From: Actinokineospora sp. NBRC 105648
Lineage (GTDB): Bacteria > Actinomycetota > Actinomycetes > Mycobacteriales > Pseudonocardiaceae
Assembly: GCF_030269645.1 (NCBI RefSeq)
Contig: NZ_BSTR01000013.1
Location: 1-64,000 of the forward strand
Length of the DNA stretch: 64,000 nucleotides
Reading direction: 5' to 3'
The translations under genes were made by a program, and so were the position numbers. Within the stretch, counting starts at the first letter, position 1. Each line of letters opens with the position of its first letter. The notes beneath the pieces were generated by a model. The model made no database searches and was not told the origin of the DNA. It saw nothing but the letters and a program-made list of their open reading frames with translations. Below, one piece after another: positions 5,752 to 26,389 of this stretch.

Positions 5752-7152
5752 TCAGCCGCCGAGGGTGTGGAACAGATCGGTGTGGTCGTGGGTGCCCAGC
5801 ACCGCGAGCGAGCCCGGGCCGATGGCCCAGACCGGGACGACCGCGCCGGTGTGCTGCTGGCTCGGCGCCGTGGCGGCCGGGGCGGCACCCGGGCCGCCGT
5901 AGCCGGCGGTGCCGTAGGTCAGCGTCAGGGTGGCGCCGTCCTTGGTGGTCAGGTTGGTCGAGTAGCCGGTGGGCAGGCCGTTGCCCGAGGCGTCCTCGGA
6001 GACGATCTGGCTGGTGTGCGCGTGGTCGGCGCTGACCACGACCAGGGTGTTGGGGTGGCTGCGCTGGTAGTCCAGCGCGACACCGATCGCCTTGTCGAAC
6101 GCGACGGTCTCGCCGACCTGGCCGCAGGCGTTGGTGGCGTGGTCCTGCTTGTCGATCGAGGCACCCTCGACCTGCAGGAAGAAGCCGCGCCGGTTCTCCA
6201 GCAGGCTGATCGCCTTGCTGGTCATGTCGGCCAGGCTCGGCTCGTTGGCCGGGCGCTGGTTCTCCACGCACGGCGCGGGGGCGTTGCCCTTGCCGAGCGC
6301 CGCGGCCGGGCCGCTCCACTCGACGGCCATGTTGCTCGCGTTGAACAGGCCGAGCACCGGCTTGTCCGCCTTCTTCACCGCGGCGAGGCCCGCGGCGTCG
6401 GTGACGTACTGGAAGCCCTTGGCCTGCGCGGCCTGCGCGACGGTCTTGCCCGCGTCCGGACCACCGGTGACGGTCTGGTCGTAGCGGCCGCGGCCGCCAC
6501 CGAGCAGGACGTCGATCTTGTGGTCGACCTGCTGCTCGGCGATCGAGCCCAGGCCGCCCACGGCCTTGGTCTCCTTGGCGCAGGCGGCCATGTTGGCCGG
6601 GCCCTGGCAGCCGCGCAGCGAGATGTGCGAGGACAGCACGGCCGGGGTGGCGTCGGTGATCTCGGCGGTGGAGACGTCGCCGACCTTCAGGCCGCGCTTC
6701 TGGGCCTTCTCCAGGACGGTCTCGTAGTTCTCGCCGGGCACGTCGATCGCGGTGCTCGGGCCCTGCGAGATCCGCTCGTCGATGGTCTTGCGGCCGGTCG
6801 CCCACATGGTGCCGGTGGAGGCCGAGTCCGGGTCGTAGTCGGGCAGGTACGGCGCCGCCGCGGCGGGCTTGACCGACCAGGTGGTGTCGAAACCGGTGAG
6901 CGCGAGCCGGTCGACGTTGAGCTTGTTGTGCACGCCCTGGTAGTAGCGGGCGGCGGTGATTTCCTGCGTGCCCATGCCATCGCCGATGAGGTAGATGACA
7001 TTCGTCGGGTGCCGGTCGACAAGCGCCTGCACAATGGCGCGCTCGGTGGCGCCGGAACCGTTGAAAGAACCGTCCGCGGACGCGGTACCCGCGCCGACCG
7101 CGGCGGTGAGGGCGGCCACACCGGCGACGGCGACAATCACCTGTCGTTTCAT
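5752..7152 (-). CDS. phoA: Secreted alkaline phosphatase (PhoA type)
   Basis: 466-residue exported phosphomonoesterase that releases phosphate from organic esters. Signal peptide at residues 1-26 with an A-S-A cleavage site. Metal-binding Asp58 lies in LIGDGMG; the nucleophile Ser110 lies in DPDSASTGTMWATG; further metal ligands are in EGASIDKQDHA, SADHAHTSQ and QQHTGAVVPVWA. All key PhoA-family residues are present and the length is normal. The ATG at 7152 has AAAGG about 8 nt upstream. It is a single-gene unit ending in the hairpin at 5705. PhoP control would be expected for the family, but I could not identify a convincing PHO box in the 356 bp upstream. Confidence 0.93.
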   Translation of the reverse strand: MKRQVIVAVAGVAALTAAVGAGTASADGSFNGSGATERAIVQALVDRHPTNVIYLIGDGMGTQEITAARYYQGVHNKLNVDRLALTGFDTTWSVKPAAAAPYLPDYDPDSASTGTMWATGRKTIDERISQGPSTAIDVPGENYETVLEKAQKRGLKVGDVSTAEITDATPAVLSSHISLRGCQGPANMAACAKETKAVGGLGSIAEQQVDHKIDVLLGGGRGRYDQTVTGGPDAGKTVAQAAQAKGFQYVTDAAGLAAVKKADKPVLGLFNASNMAVEWSGPAAALGKGNAPAPCVENQRPANEPSLADMTSKAISLLENRRGFFLQVEGASIDKQDHATNACGQVGETVAFDKAIGVALDYQRSHPNTLVVVSADHAHTSQIVSEDASGNGLPTGYSTNLTTKDGATLTLTYGTAGYGGPGAAPAATAPSQQHTGAVVPVWAIGPGSLAVLGTHDHTDLFHTLGG

Positions 7153-7508: not shown

Positions 7509-8069
7509 ATGACTTCAATTTCGGACTCGCCAAACCGTTCCCGGAACCGTGCCACCGGCAGGCGCGGGCTGCTCGTGACCGCCGCCGCCGTGGTCGCCGC
7601 GACCGCCACCGCGGGCGTCGCCGCCGCGGCCCCCGGGCAGACCGACACCGACGACACCATCGCCAAGGTCGTGGTCACCTCGGCGATCACCCTGACGAAC
7701 CTGACCCCGGACTTCACCCTCACCGGGCTGCCGGGCGCCACCGTGGCGCAGAGCGGCATCGTCACCTTCACGGTCACCACCAACAACCTGGCGGGCTACG
7801 CGGTCACCGTGCAGAGCCGCACCCCGGCGCTCGCGCCGACGGCGTCGGGCAACACCGACTCGATCCCGATCAGCGCGCTGTCGGTGCGCGAGACCGGCAC
7901 CACCCCGTACACCCCGCTGAGCAACACCGCCCCGGTGACCGTGCACAGCCAGTCGACCCGCTCGGCGCCGACCGGCGACAACCTGAGCAACGACTACCAG
8001 GTCGTGATCCCGTTCGTGAACGAGGACACCTACACCACGACCCTGGACTACGTCGCGACGACGCTCTGA
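7509..8069 (+). CDS. Small secreted protein sharing the C-terminal domain of the giant surface protein
   Basis: 186 residues. The N terminus has GRRGLLV followed by an Ala/Val-rich segment and an A-A-A-A-P cleavage region, a Sec signal (possibly Tat). The mature part (about residues 58-186) is one beta-rich domain starting ITLTNLTPDFTLTGLPGA and ending YTTTLDYVATTL. This domain is clearly homologous to residues ~3750-3873 of the 3,873-residue protein two genes downstream: blocks LTPDFTLTGLPG/LTPEFTLTGLPG, ALSVRETG/RLSVRETG and SNDYQVVIP/SNDYRVEIP align without large gaps. GAAGGA lies 9 nt before the ATG. It is the first gene of a four-gene operon. The domain recalls WxL-type and other C-terminal beta-sandwich modules, but no family is certain. 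Confidence 0.8.
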   Translation: MTSISDSPNRSRNRATGRRGLLVTAAAVVAATATAGVAAAAPGQTDTDDTIAKVVVTSAITLTNLTPDFTLTGLPGATVAQSGIVTFTVTTNNLAGYAVTVQSRTPALAPTASGNTDSIPISALSVRETGTTPYTPLSNTAPVTVHSQSTRSAPTGDNLSNDYQVVIPFVNEDTYTTTLDYVATTL

Positions 8070-8084
8070 ACCGCTGACACGCCC

Positions 8085-9140
8085 ATGGCCCACCCGCTCA
8101 GGGGTGGTGCCGTGCTCGCGACCGCCACGCTGCTGTGGGCCTGCACGGCTCCGGCCGCGCCAGCGGTCACGGCACCCGGCACCACAACACCCACCACCCC
8201 GACACCCACCACCGCGACCCCTGCGGGCTCGACCCCCGCCGGCTCGAGCACCACCACCCCGCCGTGGTCGAACCCGGCGCAGACCACCTCGTACAGCACC
8301 GTCCCGGCGGGGTTCTCGCTGACGGTGAGTCCCACCAGGATCGTGGTCGGACCGCAGGAGAGCACGGGCACGCACGAGGTCCTGGTGGTCAACCGGGGGC
8401 AGGCCCGGGCCACCGTCACCGTGCAGGAGCGCGACTTCGTCGGCGGTGCCGACGGCTCGCTGGTGTTCCAGGAGCGGGCGCCGTACTCGGCCTCGGAGTG
8501 GGTCGCGGTGAGCCCGACGACCTTCGACCTGGGACCGGGCACCAGCCAGGTGGTGCGCGCCGCGGTCGCGGTGCCCCCCGCGCCGGAGCCGGGCGACCAC
8601 CAGGTCGCGCTGGTCTTCCTGGTCGAGGCCGGGGTCACCGAGGCCAACGTCCGGGTCAACCGGGGGGTGGCCACGCCGATCTACATCACCGTGTCCGGGC
8701 CCGCGCACGACTTCAGCACGATCACCGACCTGGCCGCGCCCGGCTTCGTGCTCGACGGGCCGGTGCGGCTCTCGGCCAAGGTCCACGACGAGGGCACCGT
8801 GCACCGCGACTTCCGCGGCCCCACCGCCCTGCGGGTGAGCGCGTCGGGCGAGAGCGCGACGTTCCCGGACTTCACCGTGCTGCGCGGCGGCACCCGCGAC
8901 ATCAGCACCGACTGGGAGCCGCCGCTGTTCTGCGTGTGCTACCCCAGCGTCACGGTCACCAACGCCAACGGGGTCACCCGCACGGTGCAGGCCCAGGTGG
9001 TGGTGGTCCCGCTGCACCTGATCGGCGTCGTGCTCGGCGCGCTGCTGGTCCTGTGGCTGGCCTACCGGCTGGCCCGGCGCCGCTACCGCGCGGCGGTGGC
9101 CACGGCGGCGGCCAGGGTGAACGAGTCGGGCGATGCGTAG
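8085..9140 (+). CDS. DUF916/WxL-interacting-like membrane-anchored surface protein
   Basis: 351 residues: N-terminal export signal, a Thr/Pro-rich low-complexity linker (about 30-70), then an Ig-like domain beginning LTVSPTRIVVGPQ with strands resembling DUF916 (WxL protein peptidoglycan-interaction domain). A second beta domain follows (about 215-300), then one membrane helix (about 306-328) and a basic cytosolic tail. A possible lipobox-like LWAC lies in the signal region. The ATG at 8085 has no clear ribosome-binding site; a GTG at 8112 with AGGGG upstream is an alternative but would remove the positive N-region. It ends 8 bp inside the start of the giant gene. By analogy with WxL operons it may hold the other exported proteins at the cell envelope, which is inferred. 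Confidence 0.68.
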   Translation: MAHPLRGGAVLATATLLWACTAPAAPAVTAPGTTTPTTPTPTTATPAGSTPAGSSTTTPPWSNPAQTTSYSTVPAGFSLTVSPTRIVVGPQESTGTHEVLVVNRGQARATVTVQERDFVGGADGSLVFQERAPYSASEWVAVSPTTFDLGPGTSQVVRAAVAVPPAPEPGDHQVALVFLVEAGVTEANVRVNRGVATPIYITVSGPAHDFSTITDLAAPGFVLDGPVRLSAKVHDEGTVHRDFRGPTALRVSASGESATFPDFTVLRGGTRDISTDWEPPLFCVCYPSVTVTNANGVTRTVQAQVVVVPLHLIGVVLGALLVLWLAYRLARRRYRAAVATAAARVNESGDA

Positions 9141-12100
9141 GGCGACTGCCCTGACCGCGGCCGCGGCGCTGGTGGCCGGGGTGGTGGGCGCCGTGGTCGG
9201 CGGGGTCTCCCCCGGCACCGCCCGCGCGGCGGGCACCACCCTGTTCGACAACTCTTTCGCCTACAACACCATCGCCGCGGGCGGCACCGGCACGGTCACC
9301 GTGCCCACTCCGGTCGGCGGGGTCAACGCCGCCTGCCTGACCGCGACCGGCAACCTGCTCACCGGGCCGGTGACCAGCTGCCTGGGCACCACCGACGCCA
9401 ACGGCGCGGGCAAGCTCCGGCTCACCTCGGCGGCGGTCACCCAGGCGGGGTCGGTGTTCGGCGCGACCAGCTTCCCCACGTCCAACGGCCTGGACATCAC
9501 CTTCAACACCTACCAGTACGGCGGCACCGGGGCCGACGGCATCTCGTTCGTGCTGGCCGCGGTCGACCCGGCGAACCCGGTCATCCCGACCACCATCGGC
9601 CCCAACGGCGGCTCGCTGGGCTACTCCTCGAGCGCGGGGACCGTCGGCCTGCCCAACGGCTACCTGGGCATCGGCCTGGACGTCTACGGCAACTTCAGCT
9701 CGCCGAGCTTCCAGGGCTCCGGCTGCGCCAACCCCACCTACATCAGCGCCGCGGTCGCGGGGGCGATCGTGGTGCGCGGCCCGGGCAACGGCACGGTCGG
9801 CTACTGCGGGCTGACCACCACCTACGCCGGGACCACCGCGTCCCGGGTCACGCTGCGCGCCTCGACCAGGGCGGCCTCGGTGGTGCCGGTGCAGGTGCTG
9901 ATCAACCCGACCACGGTGGCCTACACCTCGGCCACCGGCGTCTCGGTCGCGGGCAACTCCTACAAGGTCGTCGCCACCCCGGTCGGCGGCACCGCCAAGA
10001 CGCTCACCGGCACCTTGCCGACCGTCTCGTCCACGCTGTACCCCTCGAGCAGCTGGCTCACCGCCTCCGGGGTGCCCAAGCAGCTCGCGTTCGGCTTCGC
10101 GGGCTCGACCGGCGCGGTCACCGACGTGCACGAGATCGGCAACGTCAAGGGCCTCAGCGCCAACCCGGTCCCCCAGCTCACGGTGAGCACGACCAGCTAC
10201 TCGCCCGCCACCGCCACCGCGGGCGGTCCGGTCACCTACACCGTCTCCGCCGGTGTGCTCGCGGGCGCCGACGAGGCGAGCGCGGTCTCGGTCACCCAAA
10301 CGCTGCCCGCGGGCGTGAAACCGCTGGGCGCCTACGGTTCCGGCTGGACCTGTGCGACCCCGGTGGGCCAGTCGGTCACCTGCACCACGACGGCCACCTC
10401 GATCGCCAACGGCACGACCCTGCCCAACATCACCGTCGTCGGGGTCGCCACCACCAGCGTCACCGCGGCCACCGTGCAGAGCGGGTCACCGTCCACTGTG
10501 TCCTCTTCGGACGGCAGCCCGGCGACCGACACCACGACCACGGCGGGCACCCTGGCGACCACGCCGTCCGGGCTGGCGCTCAGCCCGGCGACCGGGTCGG
10601 TGTCCGGCGGCGGGAACGTCACGATCACCGGCTCGAACATCACCAACGCCACCGCGATCGAGATCGGCACCACGGCCGAGCAGCAGGCGGGTACCCCGGT
10701 CACGCTGTTCCCCTGCACCGCCACAGTGACCACGGGGTGCTTCACCGTCTCGGGCAGCACGTTGGTGATCAACGGGATGCCCGCGCGGGCGTCGGTGGGC
10801 GCGGTGAACGTCACCGTGGTCACCCAGGGCGTGGCCAACTCGGTCGCCTACACCTATGTGGACAAACCCGCGACGCCCGCGGCGCCCACCGCCACCGCGG
10901 GTGTCACCAGCGCCACGGTCACCTGGACGGCGCCCGCCACCAATGGCAGCCCGATCACCGGCTACGTCGTCACGCCCTACCTGAACGGCGTGGCGCAGAC
11001 ACCGGTGAACTACGACGCGTCGGCCACGACACGCACCCTCACGGGCCTCACCGCGGGTGGGAACTACACCTTCACCGTCGCGGCGGTCAACGCGTACGGC
11101 ACGTCAGCGGCCAGCCCGCTGTCCAACACCGTGGTGCCCTACACGGTGCCCACCGCGCCGACGATCACCGCGGCGAGCGCGGGCGACGCGCAGGCCACCC
11201 TCACCTGGACCGCGCCGACCAGCAACGGCGGCAGCGCGATCACCGGCTACGTGGTCACCCCGTACATCAACGGTGTCGCCCAGGCACCGCAGACGTTCAG
11301 CGGCACCGCGCTCACCCAGACCGTCACCGGCCTGACGCCTGGCACGGCGTACACGTTCACCGTCGCCGCGCAAAACGCCGCCGGGACCGGGCCGCCGTCG
11401 AGCTTCTCCGCCTCGGTCACCCCCAACCGCTCCCCCAGCCTGACCTTCGCCAACCCGGCGTCCGGCGAGGTCGGCGTCGCCTACAGCACGACGTTCACCG
11501 TCACCGACGGCACCGCGCCGTTCACCTGGTCCATCCCGAGCGGCGCGCTCCCGCCCGGCCTCACGCTCAACACCTCGACGGGCGTCCTGAGCGGCACCCC
11601 GACCACGGCGGGCAGTTACACCTTCACCGTCCAGGTCACCGACGCCAGCGGCCAGACCGCGACCAAGTCGGTGACGATCGTGATCGCCGCCCAGCCCACC
11701 ATGACCTTCACCCCGCCCGCCGGTGAGGTTGGCGTCGCCTACACGACGCAGCCCACCGTCACCGGCGGCACCAGCCCGATCACCTACGCGGTCACCGCGG
11801 GCAGCCTCCCGGGCGGGCTCACGCTCAACACCTCGACCGGCGTGGTCAGCGGGACGCCCACGACGGCGGGCAGCTACACCTACACCCTCACCGCGACCGA
11901 CGCGTTCAACCAGACCGCCGCCAAGACGGTGACCGTCGCGATCGCCGCACGGCCAACGCTGAGCACCGCGACGCCACCCGCACCGCAGGTGGGCGTCGCC
12001 TACAGCACCTCGTTCGACGTCACCGGCGGCACGGCGCCGTACTCGTGGGCGCTCACCGCGGGCAGCCTGCCGCCCGGGCTGACGCTCAACACCGCCACCG

Positions 12101-15100
12101 GGGTGCTCTCCGGGACGCCGACCACCACGGGGACGTACTCGTTCAGCGTCACCGTGATCGACGCCTTCGGGCAGACCGCGACCAAGGCGGTCACGCTGAC
12201 CGTCGGCGCGGGTCCGATCGTGATCACCAAGACCGCCAACACGTCCTCGGCCGCGGTGGGCAGCACGGTGGCCTACACGATCACCGTGGCCAACACCGGC
12301 TCGACGGCGTTCACCGGGGTCACCCTGTCCGACCCGCTCGGCGGCGTGCTCGACGACGCCACCTACAGCGGCAACGCCACCGCGACCAGCGGCACGCTGA
12401 CGTACTCGTCGTCCACCCTGGGCTGGACGGGCAACGTCGCCGCGGGCGCCACCGTCGTGATCAGCTACTCCGTCGCGGTCAGCAACCCGGGCACCGGCAA
12501 CAAGATCCTGGCCAACACGGTGTCATCGTCCACTTTGGGCACGAACTGCCCCAGCGGCGGGGCCGACACCCGGTGCACCGCGACGGTCACCGTGCCCGGC
12601 CTGAACATCGTCAAGTCCGCCGACGTCTCCAGCACCACCCCGGGCGGCACGGTCCGCTACACGATCACCGCCACCAACACCGGCCAGACCGCCTTCGCCG
12701 CCGCCACCTTCACCGACGGACTCGCGGGTGTGCTCGACGACGCGAGCTACAACGGCGACGGCACAACCACTTCCGGCAGCGTGTCGTTCACCAGCCCGAA
12801 CCTCACCTGGACCGGCCCGCTCGCGATCGGCGCGAGCACCACGGTCAGCTACTCGGTCACGGTCAACAACCCCGACACCGGCGACAAGGCGCTCACCGGC
12901 ACGGTGACCTCGCCGACCGCGGGCAGCTCGTGCCCGAGCGCCGCCCCGGCCGCGCAGTGCACCTCGACGGTCACCGTGCTCGTCCCGGCGCTGTCGATCA
13001 CCAACACGGCCAACACCACGAGCACCACCCCCGGCGGCACGGTGTCCTACACGGTCACCCTGGCCAACACCGGGCAGACCGCCTACACCGGCACGAGTGT
13101 CGCGATCGGACTGTCCGGCGCCCTGGACGACGCCATCTACGGCGGCGGTGCGAGCGCCACCAGCGGCAGCCTCGCCTACAGCGCGCCGACGCTCACCTGG
13201 ACCGGGAACATCCCGATCGGCGGCACGGTCACCATCACCTACGCGCTCACCGCCCGCTCCCCCGCCCCGGGCGACAAGACGATCACCACGGTGGTGTCGT
13301 CGGGCGCGGCGGGCAGCGCGTGCCCGGCGGGCAGCGCGAACTCCGCGTGCACCAGCAACGTCCAGGTACTCATCCCGGGCCTCACGATCACAAAGGCCGC
13401 TGACTCGGCGACCACCACGCCGGGTGCCACCGTCCGCTACACCATCGCGGTCACCAACTCCGGCCAGACGCCCTACACGGGCGCCGCGCTGAGCGACCAG
13501 CTCACCGGCGTCCTCGACGACGCCACCTACAACGGCGACGCGGCGGCCACCAGCGGCAGTGTCTCCTACAGCGCGCCAACGCTTTCCTGGACGGGGAACC
13601 TGGCCGTGGGCGCCACCGCGACGATCACCTACTCGGTCGCGGTGAAGTCCCCGGCCACCGGCGACAAGACGATGACCAACACCGCCACCTCAACCGCGGC
13701 GGGCAGCACTTGCCCGACGGGCTCGCCGGGCGCCCAGTGCACCAGCACCGTCGCGGTCCTGATCCCGGCGCTGACCTTCGCGGTCACCCCGGACGCGACC
13801 ACGACCACGCCGGGTTCGACGGTCAAGCACACCGTGTCGGTCACCAACAGCGGCCAGACCACCTACACCAACCTGGCCGTCACGGTGGATCTCAACGGCG
13901 CCACCGACGACGCGACCTACGACAACGACGCCGCCGTCAGCACCGGCAGCCTGGTCAACAACGGCGACGGCACCGCCACCTGGACGCTGAGCCTGGCCCC
14001 GGGCGCGGCGGCCAACCTGACGCTCACCACCACGGTGAACAACCCGGACACCGGCGACAAGGTGCTGCGGGTGGCGGCCTACAGCACGGCGGCGGGCAGC
14101 CCGTGCGCGGCGGGCTCGACCAGTTCGTCCTGCCGGGACACCGTGACCGTGCTGGTGCCGGGGCTGACGATCACCAAGTCCGCCAACGCGAGCGCGGTCA
14201 CCCCGGGTGACCCGGTGACCTACACGGTGTCGGTGGTGAACTCCGGCCAGACCACCTACTCCCCCGCCGCGTTCACCGACGACCTCACCACCGTGCTCAC
14301 CGACGCGGTCTACACCGGCAACGCCACCGCCACCACCGGTGCGGTGTCCTACTCCGCGCCAGTGTTGTCCTGGAGCGGCACCCTGGCGCCGGGGGCGACC
14401 GCGACGATCACCTACGCCGTGGCGGTCCGCGACCCGGACCCCGGTGACAAGCGCCTGATCAACACGATCGTCTCCAGCGCACCCGGCAACAACTGCCCCG
14501 CGGGCGGCACCGACGCGCGGTGCACGGCCACGGTGAGCGTCCTGGTACCCGCCCTCACGATCACCAGCACCGCGGGCAGCGCCACCACTGTCCCGGGGGC
14601 CACGCTCAGCAAGACCATCACCGTCACCAACTCCGGCGCGACGCCCTACACCGACGCGGCGTTCACCGACGCGCTGGCGGGAACCCTGGACGACGCGGAC
14701 TACAACGGCGACGCCGCCGCCTCCACCGGCACGGTGTCCTACGCGGGTGGTGTGCTGAGCTGGTCGGGCAACCTGGCCGTCGGCGCCTCGGCGACGATCA
14801 CCTACACGGTCGCTGTGCACCCGGCCGACGGCGGCGACAACCTGGTGAAGGACACCGTCACCTCGAGCACCCGGGGCGTGAACTGCACGTCCGGCAACAC
14901 CGACAGCAGATGCGGCTCGACCGTCCCGGTGGCCAGACTCGTCCTCCAGCAGTCCTATCAGGACACCTCGACCACCCCCGGCGCGGTCGTCCGGCTCAAC
15001 GCGACGTTCACCAACACCGGCAAGGTGGCCTACACCGGGATCACGGTGTCGAGCCCCAGCGCGGACACCCTCGACGACGCGATCGCCAACGGCGACCAGG

Positions 15101-18100
15101 CCGCCACCTCGGGCACGCTGTCGCTGGGCGCGAGCGCGATCAGCTGGACCGGCGACATCCCGGTCGGCGGCACGGTGTCGGTCACCGGCACGCTGACCGT
15201 CAAGAACCCCGACACCGGCAACAAGCTGCTCACCGGCACGATGAACTCGACCGCGCCGGGCAACAACTGTCCTACTGGGACGACCGACACCCGGTGCACC
15301 GCCGCGCTGCCGGTGCTCGTCCCGGGGCTGACCCTGACCAAGGCGGCCAACACCACCACCGCGGTCCCCGACGGCACAGTGAGCTACACGGTCACCGTCA
15401 CCAACAGCGGCCAGACCGCGCAGACCGGCGCCGCGTTCACCGACTCGCTCTCCGCCGTGCTGGACGACGCCACGTACAACAACAACGGCGCGGCGACGAC
15501 CGGCACGGTGTCGTTCGCCTCGGAAACCCTTTCCTGGAGCGGAAGCCTGGCCGTGGGCGCCGTCGCGACGATCACCTACTCGGTCACGGTCAACACCAAC
15601 GGCACCGGCGACAAGACCCTGACCAACTCGGTCAGCTCGACCAACGCGGGCAGCACCTGCCCGCCCGCGAGCGGCAACACCGCGTGCACCAGCACCGTCG
15701 CCGTGCTCACCCCGGCGCTGACCCTGGTCAAGACCGCGGACCTGCCCAACGCCACGCTCGGGTCGACGGTCACCTACACGATCAGGGCCACCAACACCGG
15801 GCAGACGGCCTACGCCTCGGCCGCCTTCACCGACCCGCTGGCCGCCGTGCTCGACGACGCGGTCTACAACAACAACGCCACCGCCACCGCGGGCACCGTC
15901 TCCTACGCGAGCGGCGTGCTGAGCTGGTCCGGCCCGCTGGCGCTGGGCGCCGCGGCGACGATCACCTACACGGTCACCATCCGCAACCCGGACCCCGGCA
16001 ACCAGTCGATGACCAACACCGTCGTCTCCACCACCCAGGGCGCCAACTGCGCCTCGGGGAGCACCGACGGCCGGTGCACCGCGACCGTGGCGGTCACCAA
16101 CGCGACCAGCCTGACGCTGACCAAGACGGCCGACGTCACCGCGACCACCGCCGGGCAGCGGGTGACCTATACGGTCAAGGTGGTCAACGCCAGCATCCTG
16201 CCGGTGCTCAGCGCCGACTTCAGCGACCCGCTAGCCGACATCGTCGACGACGCCACCTACAACAACGACGCGGTCGTCTCGGCGGGCACGATCACCTACT
16301 CCGGCACCACGCTGTCCTGGGCGGGTTCCGTGGGCGCGCTGAGCACGGTCACCGCGACGTACTCGGTCACCACCAAGGCGGTGCCCACCGGCAACCAGAT
16401 CCTGACCGGGCGAGTCGTCTCCACGGCGTTGCTCTCCAGCAATAACTGCCTGTCCACCAGCACGGACCCGCGCTGCGTCAGCACCATCCCGGTCGCGAGC
16501 CTGCGGATCCAGCAGGCCTACACCGAGACCTCGACCACCCCCGGCTCCACGGTGCACCTCACCGCGACGTTCACCAACACCGGGCAGTACGCCTACAACG
16601 GCATCTCGATCACCAGCCCGACCGCCGACACCCTCGACGACGCGATCCCCGGCGAGCAGTCGGTCAGCTCCGGGACGCTGGTGCTGTCCGCCACCGCGAT
16701 CACCTGGACCGGCGACATCCCGGTCGGCGCCACGATCACGCTCACCGGCGAGCTGACCGCCAAGGACCCGCCGACCGGCAACAGGCTGCTCACCGGAACC
16801 CTCCAGTCCACCGCGCTGGGCAACAACTGTCCTACTGGGACGATGGACACCCGTTGCACGGCAACGGTCCCGGTGCTCATCCCCGGCCTGACGATCACCA
16901 AGAGCGCGGACACCACGTTCGTCGTCCCCGGCGGCACGGCGGGTTTCACGATCACCATCCGCAACTCGGGCCAGACGCCCTACACCGGCGCCTCGGTCAC
17001 CGACGTCCTCTCCGGGCTGCTCGACGACGCGGTCTACAACAACAACGCGGTCGCTACCTCGGGCGCGGTGGTCTACACGAGCCCGAACCTGGTCTGGACC
17101 GGCAACCTGGCCGTTGGCGCGACCGCCACGGTCACCTACTCGGCCACCGCGCGGAACCCGGCCACCGGCGACAAGACCATGGTCAACCCGGTTTTCTCGA
17201 CCACCGTCGGCAGCACCTGCCCACCCGCCAGCGGGGACGCGGCCTGCCGCACCACGGTCGCCGTGCTGACCCCGGCGCTGACCATCACGTCGTCGGCCGG
17301 GACCAGCTCGGCGATCCCCGGGCAGACGGTCGCCTACAGCGTCACCGCGACCAACACCGGCCAGACCGCCTACGGCGCGGCCACCTTCAGCGTCCCGCTG
17401 GCCGACGTGCTCGACGACGCCACCTACCCCGGCGGCGCGACCGCGAGCTCCGGCACGGTCACCGTCACCGGCCAGACGCTCACCTGGACCGGCCCGCTGG
17501 CCACCGGCGCGGCGGCGACGATCACCTACCCGGTGGTGGTGAACAACCCGGACACCGGCAACCACCGGCTCACCCAGACCGTGGTGTCGACCAGCCAGGG
17601 CAGCACCTGCCCGACGGGCGGGACCGACCCCCGGTGCACGACCTCGGTGCCGGTGGCCGGGCTGACGATCACCAACGTGGCGAGCACCGCCACCACCAAA
17701 CCCACCTCGGTGGTGAGCTACACGGTGACCCTGGCCAACTCCGGCCAGACGCCGTACACCGGGATCACCGTCGACGCGGCCTTCGCCGGTGCCCTCGACG
17801 ACGCCGACTACAACGGCGACGCCGCCACCAGCTCCGGCAGCCTGCTGCTGATCGCCGAGACCGGCACGGTGCGCTGGACCGGCGACCTCCCGGTCGGCGG
17901 CAGCGTGGTGATCACCGGGTCGGTGACGGTCAAGTACCCCGAGCCGGGCGACAAGGTGCTCAGCACCGTGGTGACCACGGCGGCGGCCGGGAGCAACTGC
18001 CCGACCGGCGGCGCGGACACCCGGTGCCGCACCAGCGTCACGGTGCTCACCCCGGCGCTGACCATCACCAAGTCGGCCGACACCACCACGACCACGCCGG

Positions 18101-20754
18101 GCGGCACGGTCGGCTACACGATCACGATCAGCAACACCGGCCAGACCCCGTACGCCGGCGCCCGGGTCAGCGACTCGCTGCGCGGGGTGCTCACCGACGC
18201 GACCTACCTCGGCGACGCCAGCGCGACCAGCGGCACCGTCGCCTACACGAACCCCACGCTGACCTGGACCGGCGACCTCGCGCTCGCCCAGGTGGTCGTG
18301 GTGGCCTACCACGTCCGGGTCAACACCCCCGACCTCGGCGACAAGCGGATGGTCAACGGCGTCGCCTCCGACGAGCTGGGCAGCACCTGCCCCACCGGCG
18401 ACGCCCGAGCGGGGTGCTCGACCGAGGTCACCGTGCTGGTGCCCGCACTGGACATCACCGTCACCGCCGACCGGACCACCACCGTGCCGGGCGGGTCGGT
18501 CGACTACACGGTGACCATCGCCAACACCGGGCAGACCCCCTACGTCGGCGCGAACGTGGTCGTGCAGCTCGCCGGGGTGCTCGACGACGCGGCCTACGAC
18601 GGCGACGGCACGGCCACCACCGGCGGCCTCGCCTTCACCGCGCCGAACCTCACCTGGACCGGCGACCTGGCGGTCGGCGCGACGGCGGTGGTCAGCTACG
18701 GCGTCACCGTCGCCCGGCCGGACACCGGCGACCTGCGGCTGGTCACCACGGCGTACTCGACCGCGCCGGGCAGCAGCTGCGGCGCGGGCTGCCAGAACAC
18801 CGTGGTGGTGCTGATCCCGGGGCTGTCGGTGTCCACGACGGCGAACGTGTCCACCGCGACGCCCGGCGACGAGGTGGTCTTCACGATCACCCTGGTCAAC
18901 ACCGGGCAGACCGCGTACACGAACACCACGGTGAGCACATCGCTGGCGAACGTCGTCGACGACGCCCTGTTCGACGGCACCGTGACGGCCTCGACCGGCG
19001 TCGCCACCTACACCGCCCCGGCGCTCTCCTGGACCGGCAGCCTCGCCGTGGGCGCCACAGCGGTGATCACCTACGCGGTCACCGTCCGCTCCCCCGACCC
19101 GGGGGACAAACTGCTGACCTCGACCGTGGTGGCCCCCGCGCAGGGCAGCACGTGCCCGGCGGTGGGCGGCGCGCCCGCGTGCACGGTGTCGGTGACCGTC
19201 CTGGTCCCGGCGCTGACGATCAGCAAGACGGCGAGCTCGCCCACGGCGACGCCCGGGTCCACCGTCGGCTACCGGATCGTGGTCACCAACACCGGGCAGA
19301 CCGCGTACCCGGCCGCGGTCGTCTCGGACTCGCTGCGCGACGTGCTCACCGACGCCGACTACGACGGCGACGCCGCGGTGGTCGGCGGCGGCACCCTGTC
19401 CTACGCCGACTCGACGATCACCTGGACCGGCGCGCTGCCGATCGGGGCGGCCGCGACGATCACCTACTCGGTCACCGTCCGCGACCCGGACCCCGGCGAC
19501 AAGTGGCTGATGAACGAGGTCAGCTCGCCCTCGCCGGGCAGCAGCTGCCCGCCGGACGGCAGCGCCCCGGGCTGCTCGACCACGGTGCAGGTGCTGGTGC
19601 CCGCGCTGGCGATCACCAAGACGGCCGACACCGCGACCGCGGTGGCGGGCGGGTCGGTCCGCTACACCGTCACGCTCACCAACACCGGCGAGACCGACTA
19701 CACCCCGGCGACCTTCGTCGACTCGCTGGCCGCGGTCCTCGACGACGCCGACTACGCGGGCGACGCCACCGCCAGCACCGGCGACGTCGCCTACACCGCG
19801 GGCACCATCACCTGGTCCGGCGGGCTCGCGGTGGACGAGGTCGCCACCGTGTCCTACTCGGTGCGCACGCGGTACCCGGCCACCGGCGACAAGACGCTGT
19901 CGAACCGGGTGTCCTCGCCGTCGGCGGGCGCGAGCTGCCGCACCGGCGCCGAGGCGGGCTGCTCGACCGCGGTGGCCCTGCTGGTGCCGGGCCTGGCGAT
20001 CAGCAAGGCCGCGAACACCGCCCAGGTCGTGGCGGGCGGCTCCGTGCAGTACACGATCACCGCCACCAACACCGGCGAGGCCGACTACCCGTCGGTCACG
20101 ATCACCGACCCGCTGGCGGGCGTGCTCGACGACGCCGTCTACAGCGACAACGCCACCGCCACGAGCGGCACCGTCGGCTACGCGGGCGGCACCGTCACCT
20201 GGACCGGGCCGGTCGCCCGCGGCGCCACCGTGCTGATCACGTTCACCGTCGCGGTCAACGCGGGCACGACCGGCGACGAGGTGCTGCGCAACCGGGTCGA
20301 GTCCGCGGCGGTCGGCAGCACATGCCCGGTCGGCGGCAGCGCGCCCGCCTGCTCGACGACGACCCCGGTCGCGCCGCGGTTCATCACGCTGACCGACCTG
20401 ACCCCGGAGTTCACCCTGACCGGCCTGCCGGGCGTCGCGGTGGACTCGACCGGCATCGTCACCATGACGGTCACCACGAACAGCACCAGCGGCTACACGG
20501 TCACCGTGCGGCCGCTCTCGCCGACCCTGGTCGGCAGCACCACCACGATCCCGGTGGAACGGCTCAGCGTGCGGGAGACCGGCGGCGGGGCGTTCCAGCC
20601 GCTCGCGCCGGGCGCCGCGCGGGTCGTGCACCGGCAGGACACCCCCTCAGCACCGAGCGGCGACGCGGTCAGCAACGACTACCGGGTCGAGATCCCCGAC
20701 GTCCCCTCGGACACGTACGCCGCGACGCTGGAGTACGTGGCAGGCACCCAGTGA
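9133..20754 (+). CDS. Giant secreted lectin/FN3/Ig/DUF11-repeat surface protein (3,873 aa)
   Basis: Domain order: signal peptide (1-32); L-type lectin-like domain (about 35-336; GADGISFVL and LGIGLDVYGNF); a DUF11-like domain (337-475); an IPT/TIG domain (about 479-575); two fibronectin type III domains (577-765); three putative-Ig repeats each containing PPGLTLNT or GGLTLNT plus SGTPTT (767-1026); 21 tandem DUF11-like repeats of about 130 residues (1027-3749); and a C-terminal domain (3750-3873) shared with the 186-residue protein at 7509. Each repeat shows LDDA-Y, L-WTG, GD or GN, and usually a Cys pair (C-P-x-G-x6-C) that could form a disulfide. There is no LPxTG motif or C-terminal membrane helix, so anchoring probably depends on partner proteins. 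The frame is intact throughout. Likely roles are adhesion or a cell-surface fibre. Confidence 0.9.
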   Translation: MRRATALTAAAALVAGVVGAVVGGVSPGTARAAGTTLFDNSFAYNTIAAGGTGTVTVPTPVGGVNAACLTATGNLLTGPVTSCLGTTDANGAGKLRLTSAAVTQAGSVFGATSFPTSNGLDITFNTYQYGGTGADGISFVLAAVDPANPVIPTTIGPNGGSLGYSSSAGTVGLPNGYLGIGLDVYGNFSSPSFQGSGCANPTYISAAVAGAIVVRGPGNGTVGYCGLTTTYAGTTASRVTLRASTRAASVVPVQVLINPTTVAYTSATGVSVAGNSYKVVATPVGGTAKTLTGTLPTVSSTLYPSSSWLTASGVPKQLAFGFAGSTGAVTDVHEIGNVKGLSANPVPQLTVSTTSYSPATATAGGPVTYTVSAGVLAGADEASAVSVTQTLPAGVKPLGAYGSGWTCATPVGQSVTCTTTATSIANGTTLPNITVVGVATTSVTAATVQSGSPSTVSSSDGSPATDTTTTAGTLATTPSGLALSPATGSVSGGGNVTITGSNITNATAIEIGTTAEQQAGTPVTLFPCTATVTTGCFTVSGSTLVINGMPARASVGAVNVTVVTQGVANSVAYTYVDKPATPAAPTATAGVTSATVTWTAPATNGSPITGYVVTPYLNGVAQTPVNYDASATTRTLTGLTAGGNYTFTVAAVNAYGTSAASPLSNTVVPYTVPTAPTITAASAGDAQATLTWTAPTSNGGSAITGYVVTPYINGVAQAPQTFSGTALTQTVTGLTPGTAYTFTVAAQNAAGTGPPSSFSASVTPNRSPSLTFANPASGEVGVAYSTTFTVTDGTAPFTWSIPSGALPPGLTLNTSTGVLSGTPTTAGSYTFTVQVTDASGQTATKSVTIVIAAQPTMTFTPPAGEVGVAYTTQPTVTGGTSPITYAVTAGSLPGGLTLNTSTGVVSGTPTTAGSYTYTLTATDAFNQTAAKTVTVAIAARPTLSTATPPAPQVGVAYSTSFDVTGGTAPYSWALTAGSLPPGLTLNTATGVLSGTPTTTGTYSFSVTVIDAFGQTATKAVTLTVGAGPIVITKTANTSSAAVGSTVAYTITVANTGSTAFTGVTLSDPLGGVLDDATYSGNATATSGTLTYSSSTLGWTGNVAAGATVVISYSVAVSNPGTGNKILANTVSSSTLGTNCPSGGADTRCTATVTVPGLNIVKSADVSSTTPGGTVRYTITATNTGQTAFAAATFTDGLAGVLDDASYNGDGTTTSGSVSFTSPNLTWTGPLAIGASTTVSYSVTVNNPDTGDKALTGTVTSPTAGSSCPSAAPAAQCTSTVTVLVPALSITNTANTTSTTPGGTVSYTVTLANTGQTAYTGTSVAIGLSGALDDAIYGGGASATSGSLAYSAPTLTWTGNIPIGGTVTITYALTARSPAPGDKTITTVVSSGAAGSACPAGSANSACTSNVQVLIPGLTITKAADSATTTPGATVRYTIAVTNSGQTPYTGAALSDQLTGVLDDATYNGDAAATSGSVSYSAPTLSWTGNLAVGATATITYSVAVKSPATGDKTMTNTATSTAAGSTCPTGSPGAQCTSTVAVLIPALTFAVTPDATTTTPGSTVKHTVSVTNSGQTTYTNLAVTVDLNGATDDATYDNDAAVSTGSLVNNGDGTATWTLSLAPGAAANLTLTTTVNNPDTGDKVLRVAAYSTAAGSPCAAGSTSSSCRDTVTVLVPGLTITKSANASAVTPGDPVTYTVSVVNSGQTTYSPAAFTDDLTTVLTDAVYTGNATATTGAVSYSAPVLSWSGTLAPGATATITYAVAVRDPDPGDKRLINTIVSSAPGNNCPAGGTDARCTATVSVLVPALTITSTAGSATTVPGATLSKTITVTNSGATPYTDAAFTDALAGTLDDADYNGDAAASTGTVSYAGGVLSWSGNLAVGASATITYTVAVHPADGGDNLVKDTVTSSTRGVNCTSGNTDSRCGSTVPVARLVLQQSYQDTSTTPGAVVRLNATFTNTGKVAYTGITVSSPSADTLDDAIANGDQAATSGTLSLGASAISWTGDIPVGGTVSVTGTLTVKNPDTGNKLLTGTMNSTAPGNNCPTGTTDTRCTAALPVLVPGLTLTKAANTTTAVPDGTVSYTVTVTNSGQTAQTGAAFTDSLSAVLDDATYNNNGAATTGTVSFASETLSWSGSLAVGAVATITYSVTVNTNGTGDKTLTNSVSSTNAGSTCPPASGNTACTSTVAVLTPALTLVKTADLPNATLGSTVTYTIRATNTGQTAYASAAFTDPLAAVLDDAVYNNNATATAGTVSYASGVLSWSGPLALGAAATITYTVTIRNPDPGNQSMTNTVVSTTQGANCASGSTDGRCTATVAVTNATSLTLTKTADVTATTAGQRVTYTVKVVNASILPVLSADFSDPLADIVDDATYNNDAVVSAGTITYSGTTLSWAGSVGALSTVTATYSVTTKAVPTGNQILTGRVVSTALLSSNNCLSTSTDPRCVSTIPVASLRIQQAYTETSTTPGSTVHLTATFTNTGQYAYNGISITSPTADTLDDAIPGEQSVSSGTLVLSATAITWTGDIPVGATITLTGELTAKDPPTGNRLLTGTLQSTALGNNCPTGTMDTRCTATVPVLIPGLTITKSADTTFVVPGGTAGFTITIRNSGQTPYTGASVTDVLSGLLDDAVYNNNAVATSGAVVYTSPNLVWTGNLAVGATATVTYSATARNPATGDKTMVNPVFSTTVGSTCPPASGDAACRTTVAVLTPALTITSSAGTSSAIPGQTVAYSVTATNTGQTAYGAATFSVPLADVLDDATYPGGATASSGTVTVTGQTLTWTGPLATGAAATITYPVVVNNPDTGNHRLTQTVVSTSQGSTCPTGGTDPRCTTSVPVAGLTITNVASTATTKPTSVVSYTVTLANSGQTPYTGITVDAAFAGALDDADYNGDAATSSGSLLLIAETGTVRWTGDLPVGGSVVITGSVTVKYPEPGDKVLSTVVTTAAAGSNCPTGGADTRCRTSVTVLTPALTITKSADTTTTTPGGTVGYTITISNTGQTPYAGARVSDSLRGVLTDATYLGDASATSGTVAYTNPTLTWTGDLALAQVVVVAYHVRVNTPDLGDKRMVNGVASDELGSTCPTGDARAGCSTEVTVLVPALDITVTADRTTTVPGGSVDYTVTIANTGQTPYVGANVVVQLAGVLDDAAYDGDGTATTGGLAFTAPNLTWTGDLAVGATAVVSYGVTVARPDTGDLRLVTTAYSTAPGSSCGAGCQNTVVVLIPGLSVSTTANVSTATPGDEVVFTITLVNTGQTAYTNTTVSTSLANVVDDALFDGTVTASTGVATYTAPALSWTGSLAVGATAVITYAVTVRSPDPGDKLLTSTVVAPAQGSTCPAVGGAPACTVSVTVLVPALTISKTASSPTATPGSTVGYRIVVTNTGQTAYPAAVVSDSLRDVLTDADYDGDAAVVGGGTLSYADSTITWTGALPIGAAATITYSVTVRDPDPGDKWLMNEVSSPSPGSSCPPDGSAPGCSTTVQVLVPALAITKTADTATAVAGGSVRYTVTLTNTGETDYTPATFVDSLAAVLDDADYAGDATASTGDVAYTAGTITWSGGLAVDEVATVSYSVRTRYPATGDKTLSNRVSSPSAGASCRTGAEAGCSTAVALLVPGLAISKAANTAQVVAGGSVQYTITATNTGEADYPSVTITDPLAGVLDDAVYSDNATATSGTVGYAGGTVTWTGPVARGATVLITFTVAVNAGTTGDEVLRNRVESAAVGSTCPVGGSAPACSTTTPVAPRFITLTDLTPEFTLTGLPGVAVDSTGIVTMTVTTNSTSGYTVTVRPLSPTLVGSTTTIPVERLSVRETGGGAFQPLAPGAARVVHRQDTPSAPSGDAVSNDYRVEIPDVPSDTYAATLEYVAGTQ
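12211..20379 (+). repeat. 21 tandem ~390-bp coding repeats (DUF11-like)
   Basis: The coding repeats start at about 12211, 12601 and 12988 and continue at near-constant 385-393 bp spacing to about 20379. They are diverged at DNA level but keep the same protein skeleton. Repeats 8 and 12 (starting RLVLQQSYQ and SLRIQQAYT) form a distinct subtype without the usual IT-K-A start, which suggests duplication of blocks rather than single units. Confidence 0.85.
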
Positions 20755-20776
20755 GCCACCGCCAAGGAGACATGAC

Positions 20777-21355
20777 GTGATCGCCACCGCAGTCCTGGCC
20801 GCCGTTCTACTGGCCGCCACCCCGGCCGAGGACGACTCGGCCCCGCGCCTGAGCATCGCGGTGGACAACACGCACGCCTCGGCGGTGGCGGGCGACCGGC
20901 TCACCTACACCGTGACGGTCCGCAACCTGGGCGCCACCGACGTCAGCGGGCTGGGCGTCACCCAGAGCGTGCCCGCCGGGCTGCACTTCGACACCGCCGA
21001 GCCGGACGGGCGGCCGCGGTCGGGCGCCGTGGCCTGGACCGTCGACCTGCCGCCCGCGGCCGAGGCGGTGTTCCACTCCACCATGACGGTCGTGGACACC
21101 CCGGCCGACCAGCTGCGCGTCGCCACCGTCGCGTGCGCGCGCACCGCGGGCGAGGACGGGCCGCCGCTGGTCTGCGCCTCGCACTCGGCGCAGCTGCCCG
21201 CGGGGGCGGCCGCCGCGGCCCAGGCGCGGGCACCGGAGCCGTGGATGGCCCGCAACCGGTGGTACGTCGCGGGCGGGCTGATCGTGGCGGCGGGCGGCGC
21301 GCTGGTCGTCCGGCGCCGTTTCTCCGGGCGCGAGGAGCAGGCGGAGGACGAGTAG
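20777..21355 (+). CDS. Membrane-anchored DUF11-domain protein
   Basis: 192 residues starting at a GTG with AAGGAGA 6 nt upstream; an ATG at 20772 is followed directly by a stop and is not usable. Short hydrophobic signal (1-15), one DUF11-like domain (about 24-125; RLTYTVTVRNLG), an Ala/Arg-rich linker, then one membrane helix (about 162-178) and a charged tail. It closes the four-gene surface operon, 22 bp after the giant gene. Its single DUF11 domain could pack against the repeat rod, and its C-terminal helix could help tether the complex; both are inferences. Confidence 0.78.
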   Translation: MIATAVLAAVLLAATPAEDDSAPRLSIAVDNTHASAVAGDRLTYTVTVRNLGATDVSGLGVTQSVPAGLHFDTAEPDGRPRSGAVAWTVDLPPAAEAVFHSTMTVVDTPADQLRVATVACARTAGEDGPPLVCASHSAQLPAGAAAAAQARAPEPWMARNRWYVAGGLIVAAGGALVVRRRFSGREEQAEDE

Positions 21356-21767
21356 GGCGCAATTCATCGAATTACCACCGGGAATTGGTGTCCGCTACCC
21401 ATCCGGCGAACGCCCACTAGGCCACCCGGCGGAGTCGAGTTCGAATTCCCGCTACTCCCAGAGTTTCCCTTGGGAGTACTGGGAATGAAACACGACACAA
21501 CTCCGGGTAGCTACCGGCCGGTTGGTACTCCCCGTCCAGAGCAGTGCGCGCACGACGACGTGCGCACCCGGTGAGGAGATCGTGAAAGTTTGTCCGAGAT
21601 TGCCCGAAATACCTCACGCAGCGTTCCCGAATGGCCGACCAGGTAACTGACACACCCGCGCGCGAGACCTCGGCGGCCCCCCGAAAAACGTCGTAACGAC
21701 AAGGGATCGACCGCGATCCACTGGTTGTTTCGTGACGATCATCGGGGACTGGACGAGGGGAACCACC
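21356..21767. other. Intergenic region with a short hairpin, no gene seen
   Basis: About 410 bp between the surface operon and the glycosyltransferase. A hairpin with arms TACTCCCA (21453-21460) and TGGGAGTA (21471-21478) lies ~100 bp after the operon and could be a weak terminator or operator; there is no T-run. GTGCGC-type short repeats near 21550 look incidental. The promoter of the next gene must lie here, but I cannot place it. Confidence 0.5.
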
Positions 21768-22595
21768 ATGGATGTCGTTGTGCCCGCGCACAACGAGGAG
21801 TTCGTGATCACCGGGTGCCTGGACCGGCTGGCCGACGCGACCTCGGTGAACCGGGTCATCGTGGTGGCCAACGGTTGCACGGACCGCACGGTCGAACTCG
21901 CCCGCGCGCACCCCAGCGCGCCGGAGGTCGTCGTGGTGGAGCGGCCCGGTAAAGCGGGCGCGCTCAACGCCGGTGACGCCCGCTGCGCCACGTTCCCCCG
22001 GGTGTACCTCGACGCCGACATCGAGCTCAGCGGCCCCGGCCTGGACGCCCTGGCCACCACGGCCAAGGACACCGACGCCGAGGCCGTGATGCCCGCGGTC
22101 CGCCTGGACCTGGCGGGCGCGTCGTGGCCGGTCCGCCGCTACTACGCGGTGTGGCAACGGCTCCCGGCGGTCAACAGCTCCTCGGCCGGGCGCGGGGTGT
22201 ACCTGCTCACCGCGACCGCGCACGAGCGGGTCTTCCCGATGCCCACCGACCTGATCAGCGACGACGGCTATGTCTCCCAACGGGTCCCGCAGGACTCGCG
22301 GGCGCTGGCCACCGAGGCGGTCGTGGTCGTCAAGGCCCCCAAGGACGTGCGCAGCCTGCTGCGCCGCAGGCAGCGGGTGCACCAGGGCAACACCGGGCTG
22401 CCCCAGGGGAAGGCGGGCTCCACCGGCCTGCACACCATGGCCGAGCTGGTGCGCACCCGGCAGGCGGGCCCCGTAGACGTGCTGGTGTTCGTCGGCATCA
22501 CCGCGCTGGCACGGCTGCTGGTGCGCACCCGCCGCGGCCCGGTCGAGTGGGGCACCGACCAGTCGACCCGGACGGCGGTCGCCGTCGACTCGTAG
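21768..22595 (+). CDS. Family 2 glycosyltransferase
   Basis: 275 residues of GT-A fold starting MDVVVPAHNEEFVITG, with VANGCTDRT, the acidic YLDADIEL (DxD-type metal site) and ISDDGYVSQR (catalytic acid region). A short C-terminal hydrophobic stretch (DVLVFVGITALARLL) may touch the membrane. The ATG at 21768 was chosen over a GTG at 21732 because GAGGGG lies 7 nt upstream. It probably transfers a sugar from a nucleotide-sugar to an envelope acceptor. Two secreted proteins follow downstream, and the surface operon lies upstream, so glycosylation of a surface component is plausible but unproven. Confidence 0.87.
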   Translation: MDVVVPAHNEEFVITGCLDRLADATSVNRVIVVANGCTDRTVELARAHPSAPEVVVVERPGKAGALNAGDARCATFPRVYLDADIELSGPGLDALATTAKDTDAEAVMPAVRLDLAGASWPVRRYYAVWQRLPAVNSSSAGRGVYLLTATAHERVFPMPTDLISDDGYVSQRVPQDSRALATEAVVVVKAPKDVRSLLRRRQRVHQGNTGLPQGKAGSTGLHTMAELVRTRQAGPVDVLVFVGITALARLLVRTRRGPVEWGTDQSTRTAVAVDS

Positions 22596-25761: not shown

Positions 25762-26385
25762 ATGAGTTCGGAAACCGGACGCCGGAAGAACCGCCGCTTC
25801 GCCGCCCTGGCGATCGTGGGCGGTGTGGTCGGCAGCACCCTGCTCACGCTGTCGCTGACCGGCACGCTCTCGGCGTTCACCGCCGCGATCACCAACACCA
25901 CCGACACGGTCACCACCGGGTCGCTGGTGCTGCGCGAGACCGACGGCACCAACACCTGCATCAGCACCAGCTCGGCCACCAACTCGGCCAACTGCGCGAC
26001 CATCAACAAGTACACCGGCACCACGCTGGTGCCCGGCGGCACGGCCACCAAGACCGTCACGCTGGCCAACGACGGCACGGTCACCCCGGCCACCTTCACC
26101 CTGACCCCGGGCACCTGCACGCAGTCCGGCTCGGTCAGCGGCATCACCCCGGCCACCGACTTCTGCACCCAGATCAACCTGAAGATCTACGCCGCGGCCA
26201 CCGCCACCGGCACCCCGATCTACAACGGCAGCCTCTCCGGCTTCACCGCGGCGCTCCCGCTGACCCCGCTGGCCCCGGCGGCCACCCAGGCCTACACCTT
26301 CGTGGTGTCGGTGCCCTCCTCGCTGGGCAACACCTACATGGGGCTCACCGCGTCGCAGCCCCTCACCTGGACGTTCAGTTCCTGA
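25762..26385 (+). CDS. TasA/CalY-like secreted protein with SipW-type signal
   Basis: 207 residues. The N terminus is RRKNRRF, then a hydrophobic helix ending TLSLTGTLSAFTAAITNTTD. A long hydrophobic core followed by L-S-A-F/Y-T and N-T-x-D-T is the hallmark of SipW-processed TasA/camelysin-type precursors. The mature part is beta-rich, Thr/Ala-rich, with four Cys, and ends QPLTWTFSS. The ATG at 25762 follows AGGAAGG. The next gene encodes the matching ER-type signal peptidase. TasA proteins of Bacillus form extracellular fibres; a similar role here is inferred from domain pattern and gene order only. Confidence 0.78.
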   Translation: MSSETGRRKNRRFAALAIVGGVVGSTLLTLSLTGTLSAFTAAITNTTDTVTTGSLVLRETDGTNTCISTSSATNSANCATINKYTGTTLVPGGTATKTVTLANDGTVTPATFTLTPGTCTQSGSVSGITPATDFCTQINLKIYAAATATGTPIYNGSLSGFTAALPLTPLAPAATQAYTFVVSVPSSLGNTYMGLTASQPLTWTFSS

Positions 26386-26389
26386 CCGG

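Follow-up and report, generated by a model that had tools for sequence, protein, structure and literature searches.

The first 64,000 nucleotides of contig NZ_BSTR01000013.1 of Actinokineospora sp. NBRC 105648 (assembly GCF_030269645.1), referred to as the window, contain four open reading frames (ORFs) on the plus strand at 7509-21355. Their products are a small secreted protein (P0001), a membrane protein (P0002), a giant secreted protein (P0003) and a DUF11 protein (P0004), which are analysed here with respect to the WxL and WxL-interacting protein (WxLIP) surface systems of Firmicutes, a means of wall attachment known from lactic acid bacteria. The packing is operon-like, with a gap of 15 bp, an overlap of 8 bp and a gap of 22 bp, and the four genes described in a first-pass annotation of this DNA were all located. 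The features are as follows.

7509-8069, plus strand: ORF of the small secreted protein P0001, 186 amino acids; a signal peptide judged by eye to be cleaved near residue 40-41, an N-terminal strand segment and one WxL-like (Y-type) domain at about 60-186
7797-7799, plus strand: codon of P0001 Tyr97 (GYAV), aligned to the first WxL tryptophan by hhalign; GYx[VLI] in 33/33 rows
8049-8051, plus strand: codon of P0001 Tyr181 (YTTTLDY), placed by hhalign on the tryptophan of the second WxL motif (L. plantarum protein: YTTTLTW); 33/33 rows, 42/43 in a wider recount
8085-9140, plus strand: diverged WxLIP-like protein P0002, 351 amino acids; two domains at about 74-205 and 206-305, a C-terminal membrane helix at about 310-332 and a basic tail
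9133-20754, plus strand: ORF of the giant secreted adhesin-like protein P0003, 3,873 amino acids
9232-10182, plus strand: N-terminal L-type-lectin-like domain of the giant, by PF18483 in 6/6 orthologues
10867-12210, plus strand: two FN3 and three He_PIG (Ig-like) domains of the giant, by domain matches
12235-20370, plus strand: stalk of the giant, 21 DUF7927/DUF11 repeats of about 130 amino acids each with a Cys pair per repeat, by domain matches
20383-20751, plus strand: C-terminal WxL-like (Y-type) domain of the giant, by homology to P0001
20777-21355, plus strand: ORF of P0004, 192 amino acids with a GTG start; DUF11 protein (DUF11 match) with a C-terminal membrane helix, the conserved fourth member of the cluster

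The giant runs from the lectin-like domain through the FN3 and He_PIG domains and the 21 repeats to the domain that it shares with P0001, in agreement with its earlier description as a lectin/FN3/Ig/DUF11 protein. The best PF18483 match among the six orthologues scanned has E 3.8e-10, and the window row scores 40.4 bits against a curated cut-off of 78.3; from this similarity a lectin function with sugar binding may be inferred. The shared domain is the end of the protein, with no C-terminal sorting signal or helix after it, as had been noted. P0004 matches DUF11 at E 1.2e-11 and ends, by eye, in a hydrophobic stretch with RRR.

The shared domain and its relation to WxL

The C-terminal domain of the giant is also the only mature domain of the small protein, as in WxL proteins. 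Residues 60-185 of P0001 and 3751-3872 of P0003 are 58% identical over about 124 residues (E 6e-38), which bears out the homology claimed from the first inspection. With hhalign the shared domain aligned to 24 WxL sequences at E 1.9e-4 and a probability of 47.9%, over 107 columns, full length and collinear. Four unrelated families used as controls in the same test gave E of at least 0.059 in every mode, and the real score of 30.6 was reached by none of 120 column and block shuffles (maximum 22.3) nor by the reversed profile. The 24 sequences were four from Firmicutes, annotated as WxL domain-containing proteins, and 20 from actinobacteria. Fourteen rows were taken from PF13731 matches at E <= 0.001, some of them under the cut-off, five were chosen beside WxLIP genes by a motif permitting W or Y, and one (L098) rests on a tblastn match at E 0.2.

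The alignment pairs GYAV with the GWxL of WxL motif 1, and YTTTLDY with the YTTTLTW of motif 2. Both tyrosines are kept in all 33 rows, as are GYx[VLI] and [DNE]Y[VI]A-like ends, and none of the rows contains a tryptophan. This set excludes L009, L030, L031, L033, L043, L046 and L048 (chance matches, partial sequences or unread residues). The later rows L111-L120 are outside it and were included in a recount of 43 distinct rows, which has the GY motif in 43/43, a tryptophan outside the motifs in L119 and a phenylalanine at the second position in L116, a divergent copy outside any cluster. All 15 actinobacterial WxL rows compared keep the first tryptophan and are without the second, and one small WxL protein from Firmicutes (Companilactobacillus) has GYTVTV at motif 1; the change from tryptophan to tyrosine therefore looks gradual.

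Several results weigh against a kinship with WxL. The hhalign probability of 47.9% is low, and the matches to smaller, untrimmed WxL sets were weaker, with E 0.036 for the four Firmicute sequences, 0.0097 for 15 actinobacterial sequences and 0.0038 for those 19. None of 12 members of the shared domain matched PF13731 at E up to 10, and a hidden Markov model (HMM) of the WxL sequences does not retrieve the shared domain at E <1. Both signature tryptophans are missing, with tyrosines in their place. Missing too are the WxL turn features, Asp at W1-8, Arg at W1-6 and GTxAG (PMC9772566), in place of which a sequence of the VTTNN..G type is found. These results could be explained if the shared domain were an unrelated Ig-like module of a merely secreted giant, with a convergent resemblance to WxL. 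Such an origin seems quite improbable, since the profile match is collinear with both motifs in register and without an equal among the shuffles, the partner is homologous to WxLIPs and the gene set is conserved (below), although neither HMMER nor Pfam matches the domain to WxL and the signature residues are missing.

Pfam and NCBIfam scans gave no model that names the domain, and no relative was found among PDB sequences when the small protein, the domain profile and the WxL queries were used for searching. An affinity of the shared domain to WxL is moderately supported by the profile comparison. The relationship proposed in the first-pass annotation thus stands as far as hhalign carries it, while a match by Pfam or HMMER and the signature tryptophans are lacking. 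The name WxL-like is used, rather than membership of the WxL family, because the kinship is invisible to HMMER and Pfam.

The membrane partner

P0002 had been called DUF916-like, and this kinship is firm by profile methods. It has no Pfam DUF916 match and received no name from NCBIfam either, and among five members of its family (A3) PF06030 matched one, with a best E of 0.031 that does not pass the cut-off. An HMM made from 21 canonical WxLIPs, with no sequence of the window type included, was run on 2606 ORFs and retrieved the window ORF 8070-9137 (E 3e-19), in a match that spans ORF residues 35-342, i.e. both domains. With hhalign, 15 window-type partners aligned to the 21 canonical WxLIPs at 99.7% (E 1.1e-26, 233 columns, both domains) and to 17 actinobacterial WxLIPs at 99.8%. 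A BLAST comparison of P0002 with a canonical WxLIP of the same genome gave E 3e-4. The C-terminal hydrophobic stretch of P0002 is a helix at 310-348 in the predicted model.

Here, too, there are points on the other side. Aligned to the four Firmicute WxLIPs alone, the partners reached 55% and E 1.2e-4, which is no better than the family of the fourth gene used as a control (68%, E 4.7e-5, at the membrane end); the remaining controls gave E 0.0071 or worse. The canonical WxLIP HMM also retrieves the product of the fourth gene in seven relatives, at E from 0.83 to 3.6e-8, and the solved EfmWxLIP1 is not retrieved from the PDB sequences by a profile that contains window-type partners only. The predicted partner model is poor, with a predicted local distance difference test (pLDDT) value of 51.7.

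A mixed partner profile matched EfmWxLIP1 (9i25 and 9i1y; E 1.7e-16) and was set aside because it contained five canonical WxLIPs. A PDB sequence search with the partner gave no relative, and plasmid sequences contained no relative of P0002 at E 1e-5. The N-terminal motif NQIDKxxxYFDLK of Firmicute WxLIPs (PMC10599100) is missing in P0002, where the region reads FSLTVSPTRIVVGP. Judged by sequence profiles the homology is settled, by way of actinobacterial intermediates, and P0002 is a diverged WxLIP. Folds unrelated to WxL and DUF916, for the shared domain and the second protein alike, are not what the profile comparisons indicate.

Canonical genes of this type are present in actinobacteria. 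In the same genome, contig C28 carries a canonical WxLIP (L001:1369-2391, PF06030 34.5 bits) next to a large protein that has a WxL domain at its end, with PF13731 scores of 24.8 and 26.2 bits in two scans (cut-off 25). The C28 cluster (L018/L001) has Big_3_5 repeats, and two more weak PF13731 matches lie on contigs C25 and C7 of this genome. In a sample of 296 genomes of the phylum, at E 0.001, WxLIP (PF06030) was found in 28 and WxL (PF13731) in 11; above the curated cut-offs the numbers are 20 and 5. Going by these family matches, WxL-type genes occur well beyond the Firmicutes, for which WxL attachment has been described and which account for over 91% of known WxL sequences (PMC9772566). 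No paper that treats WxL or DUF916 clusters of actinomycetes was found in the open-licence PMC literature.

Distribution of the gene set and number of stalk repeats

Relatives of the module were found in Kribbella kalugense, an Actinoallomurus metagenome-assembled genome, Actinomadura sp. DC4 and Labedaea rhizosphaerae. The whole-genome samples gave 15/394 genomes in the class and 9/397 in the order (one of these partial and one a divergent copy outside any cluster). The family sample gave 3/100 after removal of G009, a chance match (E 2.9e-4) with an internal stop and an integrase-like frame. The counts include the window's own genome, and the samples overlap. The distribution is patchy, as none of the seven congeners in the order sample has a relative.

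Twenty clusters with a full-length giant were retrieved. The WxLIP-like gene and the DUF11-membrane gene are present in all of them and a Y-type small gene in 18, so that the small, large and partner logic ascribed to the operon from Firmicute examples recurs in form, with WxL-like in place of WxL domains, in 18/20. One of the giants is split by a frameshift, the WxLIP-like gene is frameshifted in one cluster and truncated in one, and Labedaea is not counted. The gene order is partner-giant-small-DUF11 in L003, L004 and L103, small-partner divergent from DUF11-giant in L102 and L104, and small-partner-giant-DUF11 in the remaining clusters with a small gene. In the domain tree 17 small and 16 giant domains fall on opposite sides of one branch (support 100/97), a split that fits one old duplication with both copies retained. 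The gene set is conserved across several actinomycete families.

No Y-type small gene was found in G937 and G956, two genomes of one genus, with ten candidates scored in each. A W-type WxL-like small gene lies there on the opposite strand, just past the DUF11 gene (L123, L124, L127, L128), and matches the WxL HMM made for this work at E 2e-22 and 4e-21. The lack of a Pfam WxL match for this gene tells against the proposed WxL/WxLIP reading of the operon, as does the cluster of Labedaea rhizosphaerae, where the 19 kb examined hold a truncated giant and a DUF11 gene and neither a small nor a partner gene.

Three further copies differ from the window cluster. The Labedaea giant (L005/L015) is without the lectin and the first nine repeats, and its remaining repeats are preceded, in frame, by an integrase-like sequence. 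The window's genome has a second window-type cluster (L014, contig C47) with a 21-repeat giant and a frameshifted WxLIP-like gene. In genome G784 (L126, 3896-4786) a divergent Y-type domain occurs with an FN3-like domain, and the 10 kb examined contain no WxLIP-like gene.

The number of stalk repeats takes two values only among 19 intact giants, whose open frames are 2,983-3,968 codons long. Exactly 21 repeats are found in eight (the window, the paralogue on C47, Kribbella, G094, G801, G956, G937 and G816) and exactly 15 in eleven (Actinoallomurus, Actinomadura, G374, G137, G155, G341, G373, G406, G323, G366 and G306). Left out of the intact giants were Labedaea (truncated), G171 (L104, two frames), the Kribbella copy L002 (cut; L109 was used) and contig-edge or partial pieces of G280, G382, G429, G453, G838 and G864.

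Six of the eight 21-repeat arrays have their best match at the same position for 11-19 of the 21 repeats; the other two match each other at 21/21 and the six at 2-8/21. The 15-repeat arrays tested, seven without G406, G323, G366 and G306, form two sets with positional matches of 4-14/15 within and 0-2/15 between them. In the truncated giant of Labedaea, the 12 repeats that are left correspond to window repeats 10-21 in 12/12 cases, compared with 1-11/12 in the other 21-repeat arrays. Positional identity is not above non-positional identity between the two 15-repeat sets, and is slightly the higher of the two when the outlying pair of 21-repeat arrays is compared with the others (0.47-0.51 against 0.44-0.46). 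Mapping the 15-repeat onto the 21-repeat arrays gave no consistent answer. The repeat number has thus persisted despite divergence of the repeats. A fixed number of 15 or 21 suggests selection on length or reach, with the plain alternative that the repeat number is seldom altered by slippage and that related genomes are not independent. Repeat numbers in fibrillar adhesins are said to vary (PMC9210967).

The operon is flanked by an alkaline phosphatase gene on the opposite strand (5752-7152) and a glycosyltransferase gene (21732-22595). A gene pair at 25762-27232 on the plus strand, 4.4 kb from the operon, encodes a secreted protein followed by a signal peptidase of the SipW/archaeal type (TIGR02228 E 1.2e-12, slightly below the cut-off). 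The secreted protein, which matches PF12389 only at E 0.2, has what we take to be a TasA/camelysin look, and the pair is possibly a TasA-like fibre gene pair.

Proposed mechanism and comparison with known systems

From its sequence relationships, the operon is a conserved, distinct actinomycete branch of the WxL/WxLIP kind with a tryptophan-less putative docking domain, and the WxL-like interpretation given in the first-pass annotation is supported. It is rather likely that the operon encodes a surface-display system of this kind that has diverged beyond the WxL signature, with a giant fibrillar adhesin docked on the WxLIP-like partner. Docking of the last domain of the giant is proposed because a WxLIP homologue and a probable WxL relative are both encoded in the operon. 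The giant would be a fibrillar adhesin with an N-terminal L-type lectin, a stalk of 21 repeats with Cys pairs and a C-terminal WxL-like domain for its hold on the surface, and the membrane-anchored WxLIP relative would most likely receive this domain. In an AlphaFold prediction of an enterococcal pair, a hairpin of the WxLIP enters the WxL sandwich as a parallel strand that completes it (PMC10599100); the partner would probably likewise lend a beta-strand that completes the sandwich of the WxL-like domain. The small protein may represent an old duplicate of the docking domain that serves as the small WxL protein and occupies a second site, and the DUF11 membrane protein may be an accessory. 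Partner binding, strand complementation, wall attachment and the reach of the stalk are predicted by analogy, and the cluster probably holds a giant lectin on a fixed-length stalk at the cell surface.

Peptidoglycan binding is a proposed role of WxL domains (PMC9772566, PMC10599100). The WxL-like domain might accordingly bind peptidoglycan or another wall polymer directly, with the WxLIP-like protein as a helper in secretion or folding only, and the divergent copy in G784, found without a WxLIP-like gene, would agree with such a role. The partner gene is nevertheless present in 20/20 clusters with a full-length giant, which argues that the lone domain is not the usual conserved unit, and direct binding of the wall is considered unlikely.

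The best fold matches of the shared-domain model are donor-strand fibre and pilus subunits, namely TasA fibre subunits and chaperone-usher pilins; in BFVD nothing matched at E <= 0.001. Directly before the domain, 20/20 small-type rows have the strand pattern [AV]xVxV, which 3/22 giant rows also have, there as the end of the preceding repeat. In TasA fibres the subunits complete one another by strand exchange (PMC9674648), and given the strand before the domain it is conceivable that the small proteins complete one another into a TasA-like fibre. Each small protein would then act like a pilin, its free N-terminal strand completing the subunit next to it; this arrangement has a low probability in our estimate. 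The same low rating applies to its remaining parts, a tip adhesin role for the giant, in which the domain comes after a stalk repeat and is without a free strand, and a role of membrane chaperone or base for the WxLIP-like protein. The corresponding generalization is held to be equally doubtful, namely that WxL-type systems are Gram-positive donor-strand systems with a pilin-like small protein, a strand-lending two-domain chaperone or base and a tip adhesin with a 15- or 21-domain stalk.

The window-type docking domain and its partner are candidates for the anchoring of giant adhesins that lack a sortase signal. In a survey of adhesins of the fibrillar type, no more than about half of the positive set had an anchor that was found, and anchors of unknown kind are expected (PMC9210967). 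The system would escape standard annotation, because neither Pfam nor NCBIfam has a model that matches the docking domain and the partner stays under the DUF916 cut-off. That both signature tryptophans are lost is also of help in testing what purpose the WxL platform serves.

The Firmicute WxL clusters (small WxL, large WxL and a WxLIP composed of DUF916, DUF3324 and a transmembrane segment) have the same three-part logic, with a partner homologous over both domains, a C-terminal domain common to the small and large proteins and a large protein of adhesive and Ig-like domains. The window system differs in having tyrosine for tryptophan at both signature positions, no Asp/Arg turn motif, a partner under Pfam detection, an added DUF11-membrane protein and actinomycete hosts, and its giants have 2,983-3,968 codons compared with about 500-1000 residues (PMC9772566). 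The actinobacterial WxL/WxLIP clusters (L001, L018 and L053, including that on C28) likewise have a WxLIP-type partner beside a C-terminal WxL domain, but keep the tryptophan of motif 1 (15/15 rows); the C28 cluster scores with Pfam and has a third protein with an end resembling a sortase tail, which is weak.

The TasA fibre subunits and chaperone-usher pilins, structurally the closest to the domain model, share with the small protein an N-terminal strand segment. The window system differs from them in its WxLIP-type membrane partner; no sequence match to them was found, and no SipW-type signal by eye. Fibrillar adhesins (PMC9210967) have an adhesive N-terminal domain, a repeat stalk and a presumed surface location, to which the lectin-like domain, the stalk and the predicted surface location of the giant would correspond. 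Compared with them the giant of the window is without a known anchor motif, in place of which its last domain and the membrane partner would act, and the repeat number of the window type is 15 or 21 in 19/19 intact giants.

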